From contig JAGXRK010000045.1 in the NCBI GenBank assembly GCA_018335755.1, positions 372,001-436,000 of the forward strand: DNA of 64,000 nt. The letters run 5' to 3'. A model generated the notes under the pieces. That model ran no database searches. It was not told the origin of the DNA and was given only the letters and a program-made list of their open reading frames with translations. This document shows, in pieces, positions 6,057-44,467 of this stretch. How positions within the stretch are numbered: the stretch's first letter is position 1; each line of letters starts with the position of its first letter. This DNA comes from Ignavibacterium sp. (GTDB lineage Bacteria > Bacteroidota > Ignavibacteria > Ignavibacteriales > Ignavibacteriaceae). Both the position numbers and the translations under genes were made by a program.

Positions 6057-6755
6057 CTAATCTTTATATATATGTTTTAGCAATTTCTGAAGCTGTGCTC
6101 TTCCTCTGTTTATTCTTGATTTTACTGTGCCGACTTCAATGCCGAGAATCTCTGAAATTTCTTCGTAAGATAATTCCTGAATATCTCTTAAAATAACCGC
6201 TACACGGTAAACTTCTTTCACTTTGAGCAGCGCCTTCTGAATTATCTCATCTTTAATTCCACTATCAGTCACATCATCCGGTCTATAATTATTATCCGGT
6301 ATATCGAAAGTCTGATGGTCTTCGCCGTAATCATTTATTGAAAAAAAATTTCTTCGTTTTCTTCGTCTGTATTCGCTTCGTGCAAGGTTACCGGCTATTG
6401 TATAAATCCAGGTATTAAACTTAGCTAACGAGCTGTATGAATCTTTGTACCTAAAAACTTTAATAAATGTTTCCTGAACAACATCTGTACATGACTCATA
6501 ATCACCTAGAAAACGATAAACAAAATTCATTAATGGATTTTTAAATCGTTCAATGAGAATTTCAAAAGCTTCTTCATTTCCGTTTTGCTGGAATTCAAGA
6601 ATCAGTTCTTCATCACTAAACTGGTGTAAATCTTTTTCCACTAAGCCGTGTTTATACTTTCCGAAAGTGAATAATGTTTCAAATCTTTTTGAAAAAATAA
6701 CTAAATATTGGGAATTTGAGAAGTGTTGGGAATTTAATGGTTTTAAGCAAACCAT
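6057..6755 (-). CDS. ECF-type RNA polymerase sigma factor
   Basis: FVYRFLGDYESCTDVVQETFIKVFRYKDSY..FNTWIYTIAGNLARSEYRRRKRR...LRDIQELSYEEISEILGIEVGTVKSRINRGRAQLQKLL. The true start may be GTG at 6641 (VEKDLHQFSDEEL). Confidence 0.92.
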   Translation of the reverse strand: MVCLKPLNSQHFSNSQYLVIFSKRFETLFTFGKYKHGLVEKDLHQFSDEELILEFQQNGNEEAFEILIERFKNPLMNFVYRFLGDYESCTDVVQETFIKVFRYKDSYSSLAKFNTWIYTIAGNLARSEYRRRKRRNFFSINDYGEDHQTFDIPDNNYRPDDVTDSGIKDEIIQKALLKVKEVYRVAVILRDIQELSYEEISEILGIEVGTVKSRINRGRAQLQKLLKHIYKD

Positions 6756-6835
6756 GAATTTGTCATAAATTATTCCGCCTCATTTTTAATAAAACTGGTA
6801 AAAAGCTTAACTTTACCCGCAAAATCAGGAGATAT

Positions 6836-7186
6836 ATGTCAAAAATCACTATTTACGAAAAACCCACCTGTACAACCTGCAGAAAAGTTGCAAAAGCATT
6901 AGAAGAAAACGGGGTGGATTTTAATAAAGTTAATTACTTTATCGACCCGTTCACTAAGACAAAACTAAAATCTCTTTTAAGGAAAATGGGAATGAAGCCT
7001 TCGGAACTTCTCAGAACAAACGAAAAAGAGTACAAGGAGCTTGATCTGAAAAACAGAAATTACTCCGAAGAAGAAGTACTTAACCTGATGATTGAAAATC
7101 CAAACCTTGTTCAAAGACCCATTGTTGAAAAAGAAGATAAAGCTATTCTTGCCCGTCCGCCGGAAAGGATCAACGAACTTTTTTAG
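6836..7186 (+). CDS. ArsC/Spx-family thioredoxin-fold protein (arsenate reductase-like)
   Basis: ITIYEKPTCTTCRKVAKALEENGVDF...RPIVEKEDKAILARPPERI. Confidence 0.85.
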   Translation: MSKITIYEKPTCTTCRKVAKALEENGVDFNKVNYFIDPFTKTKLKSLLRKMGMKPSELLRTNEKEYKELDLKNRNYSEEEVLNLMIENPNLVQRPIVEKEDKAILARPPERINELF

Positions 7187-7264
7187 TTTCATTTAAGAAG
7201 ATTGGCATCGTTTTTAAAACTTTAAATGACCTGCCATTTGTTAAACAGATTAATTGATTTAATG

Positions 7265-7288
7265 ACCTGCCTGCTGGCAAAGGCAGGT
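7265..7288. repeat. small hairpin repeat acctgcct-N8-aggcaggt
   Basis: 8-bp perfect inverted repeat with 8-nt loop in intergenic DNA. Confidence 0.6.
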
Positions 7289-7415
7289 TGGATGATTGAT
7301 TTTTCAATACAATCTAATGACTAATAATGATAACCGATGACTATCAAATAATATGATTTAGCTTTAATTCATTGCAACAAACTCTGTAATATTACATCTG
7401 GTCTATAGTAGCGTC

Positions 7416-8279
7416 CTACCCTTCCTTCAACAATTCTTCCTTAGCTTTTTTCAATTGCTCTATTTGTTCCTTGGAAAGCTTTGGATATTCAGATTTAAGT
7501 TTTTTCATTGCATCCACAATTATTTCCGAGACAACTAACCTCATAAACCACTTTTTATCAGCAGGAATAACAAACCAGGGGGTATGTCTTTTACTGGTTG
7601 CCGAGATTGCCTCTTCATATGCTTTCTGATAATCATTCCAAAAACCCCTTTCTTTAAGATCAGCAGAGGAAAACTTCCAGTTCTTTGCAGGATCATCAAT
7701 TCTTGAAAGAAATCTTTTCTTCTGTTCTTCTTTAGATAAGTGAAGGTAAAATTTGAGAATAATTATTCCGCTTTCATAACAATACTTTTCAAAATCATTT
7801 ATTTGACGATATCGCTGTTCCCATATATTGTCATTTACAAATTGTTCTGGCAGTTTTTGAAATTTAATAAGATTATGTACACGAACAACAAGAACCTCTT
7901 CATAATGCGATCGGTTAAAAATTCCTATTCTGCCTCGTTCAGGTAGTGCTTTATTAATTCTCCATAAATATCCGTGATCAAGTTCTTCTGCAGAGGGCTG
8001 CTTGAAGCTGTAAACCTGTGTTCCCTGTGGATTAACTCCGGACATCACATGTTTAATTGTACCATCTTTTCCGGCAGCATCCATAGCCTGAAAAACAAGC
8101 AGAAGTGAATACCGGTCCTGTGCATATAGTTGACTTTGAAGTTCCCTCATTTTTTTTATGTTTTCCAGAAGTAGTTTTTTTCCTTCACCCTTGGATTTAA
8201 GATTTGCTGTATAAGCAGTATCAATTTTAGAGAGGTCTAATTTGGAATTTGGTTTGACTAAAAATCGGTTGAGATTCAT
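7416..8279 (-). CDS. polyphosphate kinase 2 family protein (PPK2)
   Basis: LLLVFQAMDAAGKDGTIKHVMSGVNPQGTQVYSFKQPS...WRINKALPERGRIGIFNRSHYEEVLVVRVH. Confidence 0.92.
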   Translation of the reverse strand: MNLNRFLVKPNSKLDLSKIDTAYTANLKSKGEGKKLLLENIKKMRELQSQLYAQDRYSLLLVFQAMDAAGKDGTIKHVMSGVNPQGTQVYSFKQPSAEELDHGYLWRINKALPERGRIGIFNRSHYEEVLVVRVHNLIKFQKLPEQFVNDNIWEQRYRQINDFEKYCYESGIIILKFYLHLSKEEQKKRFLSRIDDPAKNWKFSSADLKERGFWNDYQKAYEEAISATSKRHTPWFVIPADKKWFMRLVVSEIIVDAMKKLKSEYPKLSKEQIEQLKKAKEELLKEG

Positions 8280-15025: not shown

Positions 15026-15448
15026 ATGAGCAAAACTAAAATAATGTTTGCCTTTTTACTTTTGAGCGTTTTTTTTCTATTAAGTTCTTCGGTTTTGGCT
15101 CAGGCAGAGCCAGTCCTTTATTTCTGTGAGAAATATGGAAGAAACGGTGAAGTAGGTGTAAGCGACAGATTTACCACCGGATATCTAACGGTTATGGTAA
15201 AATGCGATTATGCACTAGAACTTGACGATGTTTCAATACAGTTCGACAAATACAACGAAAGAAATGGAAAATTTGAGTATTACAAAAAATTTGATTACAC
15301 GGTTGAGCCTGATATGGCTTATGTTTTCTTCGCTAAGAATGATGACAGCGATCTTAAATTTGAGGAACCCGGTTTCTATCGTGTATTTCTTCTCGACGAC
15401 AGAGACAGAACTGTCGCAAGTGCATTGATTGAAATTATCCGAAAGTAA
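15026..15448 (+). CDS. small secreted protein of unknown function
   Basis: Signal peptide MSKTKIMFAFLLLSVFFLLSSSVLAQA; Shine-Dalgarno-like aaggag upstream; own terminator downstream. Confidence 0.7.
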   Translation: MSKTKIMFAFLLLSVFFLLSSSVLAQAEPVLYFCEKYGRNGEVGVSDRFTTGYLTVMVKCDYALELDDVSIQFDKYNERNGKFEYYKKFDYTVEPDMAYVFFAKNDDSDLKFEEPGFYRVFLLDDRDRTVASALIEIIRK

Positions 15449-15596: not shown

Positions 15597-16550
15597 ATGA
15601 ATAACTTTGATGTATTAATAGTTGGTGCTGGTCCTATTGGATTAACCTGCGGAATTGAATCTGTTAAACGAAATATATCTCATTTAATAATTGAGAAAGG
15701 CTGTCTTGTTAATTCTCTATTCCACTATCCGACTAATATGACTTTCTTTTCAACATCAGATCGTTTGGAGATCGGAAACATTCCTTTCGTATCACACGGA
15801 GATAAACCAACACGAAGAGAAGCACTTGAATATTATCGAAGGGTTGCAGACTCCTGGAATCTGAATATTCATACTCATGAAGCAGTAACAGATATTACCA
15901 GTAATCAAGGAATCTTTACTGTTCACACATCCAAAAGTAAATACAGTACAAAGAATGTAATTGTATCAACCGGATTTTACGATTACCCGAATAACCTGAA
16001 TATATCCGGAGAAGATTTACCAAAGGTAATGCACTACTTTTCTGAAGCTCATCCCTATGCTTATCTGAATATTGCAGTTATTGGCGGAGGAAATTCTGCA
16101 GTTGATGTGGCACTTGAAACCTTCAGGAGACGAAGCAAGGTTACGATGGTTGTCCGTGAACCATCTCTTAAGGAAAGTGTTAAGTACTGGGTTAAACCTG
16201 ATATAGAAAACAGAATAAAAGAAGGTTCAATTAAAGCATTGTTTAATTCTGAAGTGAAAGAAATAAGAGAAACCGAAATTGATATTCAAACACCATTTGG
16301 GATGATGACAATCAAAAACGATTTTGTTTTTGCGATGACAGGATATCAGCCGGATTACCAATTTCTTTCAAAAATCGGAATCGATGTTTCAGGAGATGAG
16401 AGCCGGGTTCCAAAGTTTAATCCGGATACTTATGAAACGAATTTAGAAGGATTATACCTTGCCGGAGTAGTATGCGGCGGCATGGAAACGAATAAGTGGT
16501 TTATTGAAAATTCGAGGGATCATGCTGCGAAGATATTTAACCATATTTAA
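15597..16550 (+). CDS. ypdA: YpdA-family putative bacillithiol disulfide reductase (FAD/NAD(P)-binding)
   Basis: VLIVGAGPIGLTCGIESVKRN..NMTFFSTSDRLEIGNIPF..KPTRREALEYYRRVA; second Rossmann motif IAVIGGGNSAVDVALE. Confidence 0.88.
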   Translation: MNNFDVLIVGAGPIGLTCGIESVKRNISHLIIEKGCLVNSLFHYPTNMTFFSTSDRLEIGNIPFVSHGDKPTRREALEYYRRVADSWNLNIHTHEAVTDITSNQGIFTVHTSKSKYSTKNVIVSTGFYDYPNNLNISGEDLPKVMHYFSEAHPYAYLNIAVIGGGNSAVDVALETFRRRSKVTMVVREPSLKESVKYWVKPDIENRIKEGSIKALFNSEVKEIRETEIDIQTPFGMMTIKNDFVFAMTGYQPDYQFLSKIGIDVSGDESRVPKFNPDTYETNLEGLYLAGVVCGGMETNKWFIENSRDHAAKIFNHI

Positions 16551-16564
16551 ATAAAGTGATTGTT

Positions 16565-16800
16565 TCGATTTTGCCAAAAATTTTGTGAGAAAAGCGTGTC
16601 GGCTCATCAAAAGAATTGCGTTAAAAAAATTTACCGGAGCGAAACGACTACAACAAAATCTGTTTGAGTCCCGCTCGCTGCTATCAGAACTTTGGCGGGA
16701 CGAGTTATTTTGTTGTAGTGCAGCGGAGGGAAATTTTAGCAATTATTTTAGAGTGCATGTTCTTTTGGTTCTTTTCTTGCGCCAAGAAAAGAACATGAGT
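16565..16800. repeat. structured intergenic element (long-range inverted repeat plus 3' hairpin); candidate ncRNA or MITE-like repeat
   Basis: actacaacaaaat (16647-16659) pairs with attttgttgtagt (16707-16719), inner stem gtcccgc/gcgggac (16668-16674/16695-16701), 3' hairpin gttcttttcttg-cgc-caagaaaagaac (16768-16794). Confidence 0.7.
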
Positions 16801-17045: not shown

Positions 17046-18095
17046 ATGATTAATAAAATTAAAGAGCTGTTAGGCAGCGAAGCCGATGAACTGCTTAACT
17101 ACAAAGCAAAATTTCCTAAAGACCAATTGCATCTGCCGGGATCTGATTTTATCGACAGGATTTTTATGCAGACCGACAGGAACAACCGTGTGCTTGGAAA
17201 TCTTCAGTGGATGTTCCAGCATGGAAGATTAGCCGGAACAGGTTACGTATCAATCCTTCCTGTTGATCAGGGAATTGAACACAGTGCAGGTGCATCATTT
17301 TCGCCAAATCCAATTTACTTTGATCCCGAAAAAATTGTTGAACTTGCGATTGAAGGCGGCTGTAATGCAGTTGCTTCTACACTCGGAGTACTTGGAATAG
17401 TTTCCAGAAAATATGCGCACAAAATTCCTTTTATTGTTAAGATAAATCACAATGAACTTCTTACATATCCGAATAAATTCGATCAGATAATGTTTGCCGG
17501 AATTGAACAAGCTTATGATATGGGAGCGGCAGCAGTTGGTGCTACAATTTATTTCGGTTCTGAAGAAAGCAGCAGGCAGATTGTTGAAGTTAGTGAAGCC
17601 TTTCAGTATGCTCACGAAATGGGACTTGCAACTATCCTCTGGTGCTACACACGTAACAGCGCTTTCAAATCAGATAAAGACTATCACGTTTCTGCTGATT
17701 TAACCGGACAGGCAAATCACCTTGGTGTCACCATTGAAGCAGACATTATAAAACAAAAGCTTCCCGAAAATAACGGCGGTTACAATGCACTTAAAGGATT
17801 CGGCAAAACTCATAAAAAAGTATATACCGATTTAACTACCGACCATCCAATTGATCTTACACGTTACCAGGTAATTAATAATTATATGGGTCGTGCAGGA
17901 CTTATCAACAGCGGCGGCGCTTCCGGTGAAAATGATTTTGCTGAAGCTGCTAAAACTGCTGTAATAAATAAACGTGCAGGCGGTATGGGACTTATCTCAG
18001 GCCGCAAAGCTTTCCAGCGCCCTATGGCTGATGGCGTTAAACTCCTGAATACTATTCAAGATGTATATCTTGCTAAGGAAATTACGGTAGCGTAA
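17046..18095 (+). CDS. fbaB: class I fructose-bisphosphate aldolase (FbaB/DhnA type)
   Basis: [73 protein letters not shown]. Confidence 0.9.
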
Positions 18096-41595: not shown

Positions 41596-43611
41596 CTACT
41601 TTAAAAACTTATTAAACCAGCCATAGACTGTTTCCCACCACAGTCTTGAGTTTTGAGGTTTTGCTACAAAATGTGTTTCATCAGGAAAATATAAAAACTT
41701 ACTTTCTACACCTAACCTTTGCAAAGATGTAAATAACTGAAACGCCTGTTCTTCAGAAACTCTGAAATCATAAGCGCCGTGAACAACAAGTACCGGAGTT
41801 TTGGCATTATGAATATATCTGTGCGGCGACCATTTTTCATAAATTTTTCGTTTATCCCATGGTGTACCGCCGTATTCCCACTCGGGGAACCAGAGTTCTT
41901 CAGTTGTGCCGTACATGCTTTCCAGGTTAAACACTCCTGCATGCGATACTAATGCATTGAATCTGTCTGTATGGCCGGCAATCCAGTTAATCATATATCC
42001 GCCATAAGATGCACCGGCAGCGAAGGTATTATCTCCATCAATGAACGAAAAATTCTCAACAGCATAATCATAGGCATTCATAAGATCGATATATACTTTA
42101 CCTGCCCAGTCACCGGAAATTTCATCTGTAAATTTTTGTCCATATCCTGTTGAACCTCTTGGATTGGGTGCAACAACCACGTAACCTTGAGATGCAAACA
42201 TCTGGTAATTCCATCTGTAATGGAAGTTGTCGCTCCACGAACCCTGAGGACCTCCGTGGATTAAAAATATCATCGGATATTTTTTATCAGGATTGAAGAA
42301 TGGAGGTTTAACCAATATTGATTGAACTTTTACATCTTCAGCACCATCACTCCAAAAGGTTTCAATAGAATTAGTTTCAAGGTTAGCAAGAACATCTTTG
42401 TTCACAGAGGTGACCTGTCTTAAAGTATTTTTTCCATCGGTACTGATTGAGTATATCTCAGCTGGCATATTTGATCTTTGTTTCAGAAAATATAAAGTGC
42501 TGCCGTCTTGTGATATTGAAAGACTTGTATTGTAATTTTCTTTATGAAATAAATCAACGTTACCGGATTCGACATCAAGTTTGTAAATTGATTTATATAT
42601 TTCATTATCAGCGTTAAAATAAATGAATTGTGAATTTGGAGACCAGACAAAATCATCAACAGATAAATCTGCATCTTCAGTAAGATTTTTCATCTTGCCG
42701 GATTTTCTCTCATATATAAGAATATCCTTCTTATCTGCCTCAAAACCTTCCCGCTTCATTGATGTCCATGCAAGATACTTCCCATCCGGGGAGTAAACGG
42801 GCTGGCAGTCAACACCTTTACTTACCGATATAAGTTTTGGTGATGATGGTGCTTTTAAACTTACTAAATAGATCTCATTATTTGTGCTGATTGCAGAGCT
42901 AAATTCAGGATTCATTGTAAAAGCAACTTCATTTCCGTCGGGGGAAAAATTATAATCATTTGCTGATCCTAAAGAAAGCGGGGGCACATCTTCTTTATAT
43001 CCCTCAGTCAGATCTGTGTATTTTCCGGTTTCTGCATCAAGTAAAAATAAATGACTGCGTTTATCTCCCCGCCAGTCATTCCAGTGCCTGTACATAAGCT
43101 GATCGAAAACTTTAGCTTTAACCTTACTTTCTTCTCTTGCTTTATCTATTTCTTCATTGCACTGTTGGGTAGTACAATCCGGATAAACAGAAGAAACGAA
43201 CAAAATCTTCTTTCCATCGGATGACCACTTAAATCCCGATGCTCCTGTATAAATATTTGTTAATTGTCTTTCACCTTTTCCGTCAAGACCGGCAATATAA
43301 ATCTGTCTGCCCATCGTGTAAGCAATCTGTTTTCCATTAGTGGAGAATTTTGGTTCACTTTCATTTTTATCTGAATATTTGAAAGGTCTAAGATTACTTC
43401 CGTCAGAATTAATAAGATAAATGTCCGTGTTTCCTTTATTTGCTTCAAATGTGAAACTGGTTAATGAAAATGTTATTGTTTTCCCGTCGGGCGATACATC
43501 ATAAGAGCCAATCCTTTTCATTGCCCAAAGGTCATCCACACTAATTGCTCGTTTGGATTGAGGAAAAACAGTTACGGAGAAAAAGAAAAGTAATAAGAAG
43601 ATTTTTTTCAT
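41596..43611 (-). CDS. S9 family peptidase (prolyl oligopeptidase / dipeptidyl aminopeptidase-like), secreted
   Basis: WD40-like N-terminus; PMIFLIHGGPQGSWSDNFHYRWNYQMFASQGYVVVAPNPRGSTGYGQKF; AAGASYGGYMINWIAGHTDRFNA; HFVAKPQNSRLWWE. Confidence 0.93.
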   Translation of the reverse strand: MKKIFLLLFFFSVTVFPQSKRAISVDDLWAMKRIGSYDVSPDGKTITFSLTSFTFEANKGNTDIYLINSDGSNLRPFKYSDKNESEPKFSTNGKQIAYTMGRQIYIAGLDGKGERQLTNIYTGASGFKWSSDGKKILFVSSVYPDCTTQQCNEEIDKAREESKVKAKVFDQLMYRHWNDWRGDKRSHLFLLDAETGKYTDLTEGYKEDVPPLSLGSANDYNFSPDGNEVAFTMNPEFSSAISTNNEIYLVSLKAPSSPKLISVSKGVDCQPVYSPDGKYLAWTSMKREGFEADKKDILIYERKSGKMKNLTEDADLSVDDFVWSPNSQFIYFNADNEIYKSIYKLDVESGNVDLFHKENYNTSLSISQDGSTLYFLKQRSNMPAEIYSISTDGKNTLRQVTSVNKDVLANLETNSIETFWSDGAEDVKVQSILVKPPFFNPDKKYPMIFLIHGGPQGSWSDNFHYRWNYQMFASQGYVVVAPNPRGSTGYGQKFTDEISGDWAGKVYIDLMNAYDYAVENFSFIDGDNTFAAGASYGGYMINWIAGHTDRFNALVSHAGVFNLESMYGTTEELWFPEWEYGGTPWDKRKIYEKWSPHRYIHNAKTPVLVVHGAYDFRVSEEQAFQLFTSLQRLGVESKFLYFPDETHFVAKPQNSRLWWETVYGWFNKFLK

Positions 43612-43753
43612 CGGTGCCTCTAAAGAATTATTAATTTATGATCTAAAAAATACGGTTTACCCAATCGAAAGGCAAAGTAAAGCGTTATGCTGTGCATAAA
43701 ATTTAAACTTAATATCATTATTGCTAACTTTGTTACAAAATTTTTACAAAAAG

Positions 43754-44467
43754 ATGGCAGATACGCAAAATATTTTTCTCCCCGGTGGATTTAAGCAGTT
43801 CAGAATCCTAAAATCAAAGTATGTAATTGCCGATAAATCCGTTTTAGTCATTGGCTCAGGCAGTGAAAAAATTGCATTTAAAATGCTGGAAGCTGGTGCC
43901 GCTCGTGTCAGCTTTATAGTTAACGAGTATGAGTCATTAATAAACGCACGGTTTGTTTTGTCAGTCCAGAATAAAGTTTCTGCAAAGATGATGGATTATG
44001 ATAACACTGATTTTAATGATAATGAATTCGATCTTGTTTATGCACAGGCATCTATAAGCACTACAAACAGAAATAAAATAGTTAAAGAGGTTAAACGAAT
44101 TCTTAAAACGGGTGGAACTCTTTGCACAGGTGAAATTACAGCTAAAGAAAAAGATTATCCAACATTTGTAAGAGACATATTTGAATCCTCTGATGTTTCA
44201 CCTTTACTTCACGAAAGCTGTGAAAAATATTTTATAGAAAGAAAATTTGAAATGATGTATAGTGAAGATTTATCTTCCTCCTTGAAAAACTTTTATGAAA
44301 CAGCCAAACAGTCTTTGAAGGATGTGATTAATGAACTTTCTGATAAAGAAAAAAGTCACTACAAGAAATTACTAAATAAAATAAGTCACGAATCGAATGC
44401 ATACCTTGAACTTGGTGCAGATAGATATATTGGGTTTAAGATGATGATACTGAAAAAATCAGAATAA
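43754..44467 (+). CDS. class I SAM-dependent methyltransferase
   Basis: KSVLVIGSGSEKIAFKMLEAGAARVSFIV...FDLVYAQASISTTNRNKIVKEVKRILKTGGTLCTGEI. ATG at 43754 preferred to the upstream alternative start. Confidence 0.75.
   Translation: MADTQNIFLPGGFKQFRILKSKYVIADKSVLVIGSGSEKIAFKMLEAGAARVSFIVNEYESLINARFVLSVQNKVSAKMMDYDNTDFNDNEFDLVYAQASISTTNRNKIVKEVKRILKTGGTLCTGEITAKEKDYPTFVRDIFESSDVSPLLHESCEKYFIERKFEMMYSEDLSSSLKNFYETAKQSLKDVINELSDKEKSHYKKLLNKISHESNAYLELGADRYIGFKMMILKKSE

Follow-up and report, generated by a model that had tools for sequence, protein, structure and literature searches.

A structurally conserved, probably mobile intergenic repeat of Bacteroidota between the ypdA and fba genes of Ignavibacterium sp.

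ERIC, BOX and RUP repeats and bacterial miniature inverted-repeat transposable elements (MITEs) can be recognized by their conserved sequence. Repetitive extragenic palindromic (REP) sequences are units of 20–40 bp whose foot carries a GTAG or CGTC tag (PMC3733652), and there are typically more than 100 copies per genome (PMC2817692). Y1 transposases (PF01797) are presumed to act on REP sequences; those of subclass 2.6, found in Bacteroidetes, are flanked by atypical structures (PMC6006769). Here we analyze an element found in a 64,000 nt stretch of DNA from Ignavibacterium sp. (contig JAGXRK010000045.1, positions 372,001–436,000; hereafter the window), where it lies between the genes for a YpdA-family reductase (15597–16550, plus strand) and a class I fructose-bisphosphate aldolase (17046–18095, plus strand). 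It is probably a mobile but non-autonomous intergenic repeat, about 180 nt long (median 180 nt, 5–95% range 163–218), that occurs throughout Bacteroidota and the plus strand of which is selected to fold. The family is real, widespread, structurally conserved and uncatalogued, being missing from Rfam and from the literature searched even though its covariation is very clear, about one in eight of the sampled Bacteroidota genomes carry it, and it is present on phage-like contigs.

The original prediction placed a structured block between ypdA and fba at 16565–16800 and saw in it either a non-coding RNA or a folded mobile element. The block is borne out by a covariance-model E-value of 1e-20 for the window copy (itself among the 16 copies used in building the model) and by covariation in other copies, but the real unit is confined to 16601–16794, with positions 16565–16600 lying outside it. 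Both kinds of element are still candidates, and the evidence leans to a mobile element. Read on the plus strand, the unit consists of stems P1, P2 and P3, a purine-rich internal loop, stem P4, the joiner CTGTTTGA, the apical hairpin P5, the joiner GAGTT, the mirror arms, a T-rich linker and a 3' hairpin, P6 (Table 1); P1 to P4 form one long bulged hairpin. Model R1, a covariance model of P1–P4 (137 positions, 34 pairs) built from the 16 copies, aligns to positions 16602–16755 of the window with 113.6 bits, and on either strand the block folds better than dinucleotide-shuffled versions of it (z = -3.0 for plus, -3.5 for minus).

That the stems covary between copies, a possibility raised in the original prediction, is evident from two alignments. 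RNAalifold, run on the 16 copies in an alignment not fitted to the model, gave 39 pairs, and in 29 of these both sides have changed in compensation. In the larger set of 117 distinct copies, pairing holds in 94.3% of stem cells, double compensatory change affects 33 of the 34 pairs, compensatory change is seen in all helices tested, and there are 1092 double-changed cells, compared to 326 after shuffling. The covariation score for these copies was 0.723, against 0.209 for shuffled and 0.07–0.14 for slid partners. Fitting of the alignment to the model tilts this score towards the structure, but it exceeds the slid controls several times over, and the 16-copy alignment, which was not fitted, gives the same picture. 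The compensatory changes are almost all Watson-Crick, a feature that would suit paired arms without function that are kept by templated quasi-palindrome correction during replication. This explanation is extremely improbable, as the internal loops, the joiners CTGTTTGA and GAGTT and the loop type are all conserved, and the interior mismatches are strand-asymmetric (G-T 52, A-C 16), which is unexpected under symmetric correction. Given this asymmetry, and the lower folding energy of the plus strand in 91 of 100 copies with RNA parameters and 92 of 100 with DNA parameters, the plus strand is the folding strand, and it is under selection to fold.

The apical hairpin bears on whether the folded molecule is DNA or RNA. 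Around 54 of the 60 short P5 triloops are GNA, with all four nucleotides represented at N, and once identical P5 sequences are counted a single time, GNA accounts for 17 of 28 triloops and GNNA for 11 of 17 tetraloops; 7 of the GNNA loops fall outside GNRA, and TNCG does not occur. Two G-C pairs capped by a GNA or GNNA loop make extraordinarily stable DNA mini-hairpins (PMC4686876). The loop types therefore favor single-stranded DNA, and G-U at interior pairs is at 1.9%, compared to 5.2% in 18 tRNAs of the same loci, a small yardstick. Two points temper this: GNA triloops are found in RNA as well, which makes the preference a lean and not a proof, and the excess of G-U over A-C is also compatible with RNA. 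Within the mobile-repeat reading, the folded molecule is slightly more likely to be single-stranded DNA than RNA, which has close to an even chance.

A hairpin like P6 follows in 163 of 175 copies, whereas adjacent control stretches have one in 48–50. In many copies its loop is complementary to the linker (CTTGAT/ATCAAG, CTTGAC/GTCAAG, GCGA/TCGC and others), a pseudoknot-like pairing that reaches a run of at least five pairs in 61 of 148 copies, against 5.7 with shuffled loops and 34 with loops dealt to other copies; in the window copy, the P6 loop of which is CGC, it is weak. Along with the very strong covariation on one strand, the excess of G-U over A-C, and a 2:1 preference for sites behind the upstream gene and in its orientation (see below), this pairing is consistent with a structured non-coding RNA gene family, or a 3' untranslated region RNA element, that has spread by horizontal transfer and duplication and works at the RNA level, for instance as the partner of a protein. 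We regard this, the main rival of the mobile-repeat reading, as possible but rather doubtful, since the element has neither a conserved promoter upstream nor a conserved terminator downstream and no consistent gene neighbor was seen, its G-U fraction is low and its apical loops are of DNA type, and, in the manner of mobile repeats, its copies multiply within genomes and one seems to be nested in another.

The original prediction supposed that other Bacteroidota have copies with the same layout but different stems, and both blastn and model searches bear this out; an alignment of the copies, by eye and with MAFFT, shows that the layout is common to them and the stem sequences are not. The element's own genome carries two copies, the second of which is diverged and was detected by blastn, and the same program matched 14 of 60 relatives, at several places in each genome. 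The search with model R1, an approach already envisaged in the original prediction, retrieved copies from 16 of the 60 relatives and, across the phylum, from 47 of 397 genomes (about one in eight) and 27 of 173 genera. Named records with copies include Flavobacterium, Tenacibaculum, Polaribacter, Flavicella, Mesonia, Galbibacter and Wenyingzhuangia, as well as Bacteroides, Petrimonas, Saccharicrinis and Carboxylicivirga. Up to 11–13 copies were found per genome. A pattern for the short form matches just nine places in the 397 genomes and is a poor proxy for the family. Copies are also carried by IMG/VR viral contigs with prophage-like genes (pattern and model search), and a blastn search of plasmid and phage collections with the window copy gave no match.

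Copies amplify within genomes: for 99 of 134 copies the nearest relative is in the same genome, compared to 3.7 by chance. The copies of one genome (G334) are alike over 145–194 bp and have unrelated flanks. The boundaries of the element are set by structure, and the flanks hold so little information (no more than 0.10 bit at upstream and 0.14 bit at downstream positions) that no conserved promoter or terminator is indicated. Two orthologous junctions in prophage-like contigs are filled in L309 and empty in L350, and in L350 one copy is apparently nested in another. At an orthologous junction in two genomes of the same genus, 318 bp including the element in G305 correspond to 7 bp in G338. The folded plus strand may be recognized while single-stranded, whether in replication, conjugation, phage growth or transcription, and an enzyme supplied in trans could then copy or move the element elsewhere in intergenic DNA, a mechanism already suggested for TnpA-REP and REP. 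In a more specific and only tentative version, the family would be a phylum-wide mobile one with a folded, pseudoknotted single-stranded DNA as its transposition intermediate and an enzyme, acting in trans, not yet known for repeats; the intermediate would comprise a long bulged hairpin, an apex capped by GNA or GNNA, and a 3' hairpin with a loop that pairs upstream.

For the 145 copies flanked by genes on both sides, tandem-gene contexts hold 60 in line and 30 opposed (p = 0.002; 43 and 24 when one copy per locus is counted), and the others are convergent (34) or divergent (21). Placement is thus a bias towards lying after genes and not a rule, which gives no indication of a cis-regulatory role. 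An integron-like recombination site of the attC type was considered on account of the same-orientation clusters of copies between genes; in one such cluster, in G305, nearly every gene has a copy behind it. It is very unlikely: the conserved arms (alignment A2) have no complementary RYYYAAC/GTTRRRY core pair, orientation is not strict genome-wide, as the above counts show, and many copies stand singly in ordinary intergenic DNA. Cassette arrays like those of attC were rejected on the first two of these grounds.

Several points weigh against the mobile-repeat reading. The G305 insert includes about 70 bp of other sequence, and no target-site duplication was seen at the filled and empty junctions, which are too diverged or hold extra sequence. 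The tandem or longer repeats of G200, G248 and Polaribacter are explicable by plain duplication, and the same-orientation excess after genes also fits a transcribed element. The element is absent beside the 20 best Y1 transposase genes, and for 20 weaker ones, searched with filters off, nothing above noise was flanking. Y1 genes occur in 37 of 43 genomes with the element and 38 of 40 without, so that its presence does not track theirs, and genomes G023, G030, G152, G163, G273 and G277 carry the element but no Y1 gene. Since Y1 genes are neither flanked by the element nor co-occur with it, TnpA-REP was rejected as the mobilizer, and no mobilizing enzyme was identified. The bulged single-strand hairpins would suit an atypical REP that is the cognate repeat of a TnpA-REP from Bacteroidota, for example of subclass 2.6, and is moved by that enzyme. 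This is nevertheless unlikely, and largely refuted for the Y1 genes examined: none of 40 in element-bearing genomes has the element at its flanks, several carry different repeats of their own, and the element's presence does not follow theirs.

Other repeats were encountered in the course of these searches. Y1 genes at L414, L419 and L421 are flanked by unrelated repeat families of the GTCGTCCGACGA, AACCTTCAAGGTT and CAGATTGATTAGCG types. In L411 (about 6530–6990; G338:C23, about 43430–43890), the apical loop of one element copy is interrupted after CTGTTT, and the interrupting stretch has a TnpA-REP-like reading frame with palindromic repeats of its own, so that one repeat system sits inside another. 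The short hairpin CCCAAACTGGAGTTTGGG, the outer arms of which differ in a compensatory manner, recurs in intergenic DNA of G305 and G338 (L114 18700–18725, and L410).

Tandem arrays of the element, with almost all copies in one orientation and with about 200–350 bp between copies, are found at L245 607–2193, L122 5083–6743 and L123 6886–10254; five copies have a period of 682 bp in Polaribacter, and five a period of 817 bp in G248. A cluster of radical-SAM-like and membrane genes in G305 (L114 1–19901; G305:C1:595000–614900) contains eight copies, one behind nearly every gene, and several of these sites differ in G338, of the same genus. At L023 1283–1412 and L083 (about 6083–7670), the element adjoins the end of a group II intron (Rfam RF00029) and the reverse transcriptase of this intron, and the intron seems to have inserted in a P6-like hairpin of another copy.

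The plus frame is open through the element in just 12 of 175 copies, the minus frame in 49 of 175 but in mixed registers, and the core lengths fall in all three classes modulo 3. A coding role was rejected on these grounds, and the 97 aa plus and 96 aa minus open reading frames of the window are taken as accidental; the overlapping frames are not conserved, in keeping with the earlier view of the block as non-coding. The excess of open minus frames may be the reason that repeats of this kind are readily mistaken for small proteins in annotation. Rfam 15 has no family at gathering score anywhere in the window, and no match on the element in 19 named loci carrying it; matches at permissive thresholds are due to chance, and membership of an Rfam family was rejected. 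Searches of the open-licence literature by core sequence and by topic gave no description of the element, an absence that is not proof of novelty. The ready covariance model, with its defined ends and stems, makes the question of RNA or single-stranded DNA directly testable, and a search for the mobilizing enzyme can start from the family.

The anatomy of the window copy is given in Table 1. All stems of the original prediction are present, but it overlooked the outer stems P1, P2 and P3, and its 13 bp long-range stem, P4, is merely the inner part of the longer bulged hairpin. Its inner 7 bp stem is found at 16668–16674/16695–16701, its purine-rich flanks at 16634–16641 and 16723–16730, and its strong 3' hairpin has 12 bp (16768–16779/16783–16794). 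Between copies, P1 varies as GCAC/GTGC, GGC/GCC or GAC/GTC, and P4 is variable, with up to 13 bp; the consensus strands of the internal loop are GNAGYGAARYG against AGYGNARYGNA, and P5 of short copies is GC-GNA-GC. Elsewhere in the window, positions 15026–15448 specify a small, secreted-looking protein without an NCBIfam match, and similar-looking proteins are encoded near element copies in G305 and G338 (L115, L118).

Table 1. Features of the element copy in the window.
Feature	Positions	Strand	Sequence or pairing	Basis
Whole element	16601–16794	+	P1 to P6 foot	Model R1 match; P6 in 163/175 copies; no sequence information outside
P1, 5' arm	16602–16605	+	GCTC; partner 16753–16756 (GTGC), one mismatch in window copy	Covaries in 117 copies
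P2, 5' arm	16609–16619	+	Partner 16739–16749, one internal mismatch	Sequence, covariation
P3, 5' arm	16626–16635	+	Partner 16728–16737, one internal mismatch	Sequence, covariation
Purine-rich internal-loop strand	16636–16646	+	Consensus GNAGYGAARYG; opposite strand 16720–16727	Conserved in alignment A2
P4, 5' arm	16647–16659	+	Partner 16707–16719, 13 bp; sequence varies among copies	Covariation
P4-to-P5 joiner	16660–16667	+	CTGTTTGA	Near-invariant in A2
Variable apical hairpin P5	16668–16701	+	GTCCCGC/GCGGGAC, 20 nt loop in window copy	
P5-to-P4 joiner	16702–16706	+	GAGTT	Invariant in A2
P4, 3' arm	16707–16719	+	Pairs with 16647–16659	
P3, 3' arm	16728–16737	+		Covariation
P2, 3' arm	16739–16749	+		Covariation
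P1, 3' arm	16753–16756	+		Covariation
T-rich linker	16757–16767	+	CTTGAY in many copies, complementary to P6 loop (pseudoknot-like)	Weak in window copy
3' hairpin P6	16768–16794	+	12 bp, loop CGC	

Compared to described systems, the element most resembles, in different respects, several kinds of repeat. Like REP/REPIN sequences and their TnpA-REP (RAYT) enzymes, it involves dispersed, non-autonomous intergenic palindromes, mostly outside genes, of which a single strand folds into bulged hairpins, and there are many dispersed extragenic copies per genome, although their number is modest (up to 11–13) beside the more than 100 of REPs. It departs from them in its median length of 180 nt, in a foot of GGC, GAC or GCAC without a GTAG/GTGG or CGTC tag, and in its absence from the flanks of all TnpA-REP genes examined. 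Rfam families of Bacteroidota such as Flavo-1 (PMC2864571) are likewise structured, but the element has no match to any at gathering score. With integron attC sites it shares a long bulged hairpin read from one strand, a variable apex, and same-orientation clusters after genes; it is longer, has an extra 3' hairpin and no strict orientation, and in place of a core-site pair its left arm in A2 reads CGTTAAR and its right arm TTTTAG. ERIC, BOX and RUP repeats and bacterial MITEs are similar in size class, intergenic location, long imperfect palindrome and within-genome amplification. Unlike MITEs, the element is without a terminal inverted repeat, its 5' end (P1) and 3' end (the P6 foot) not being complementary, and unlike all four of these repeat types, its stems change freely in sequence while their pairing is kept.
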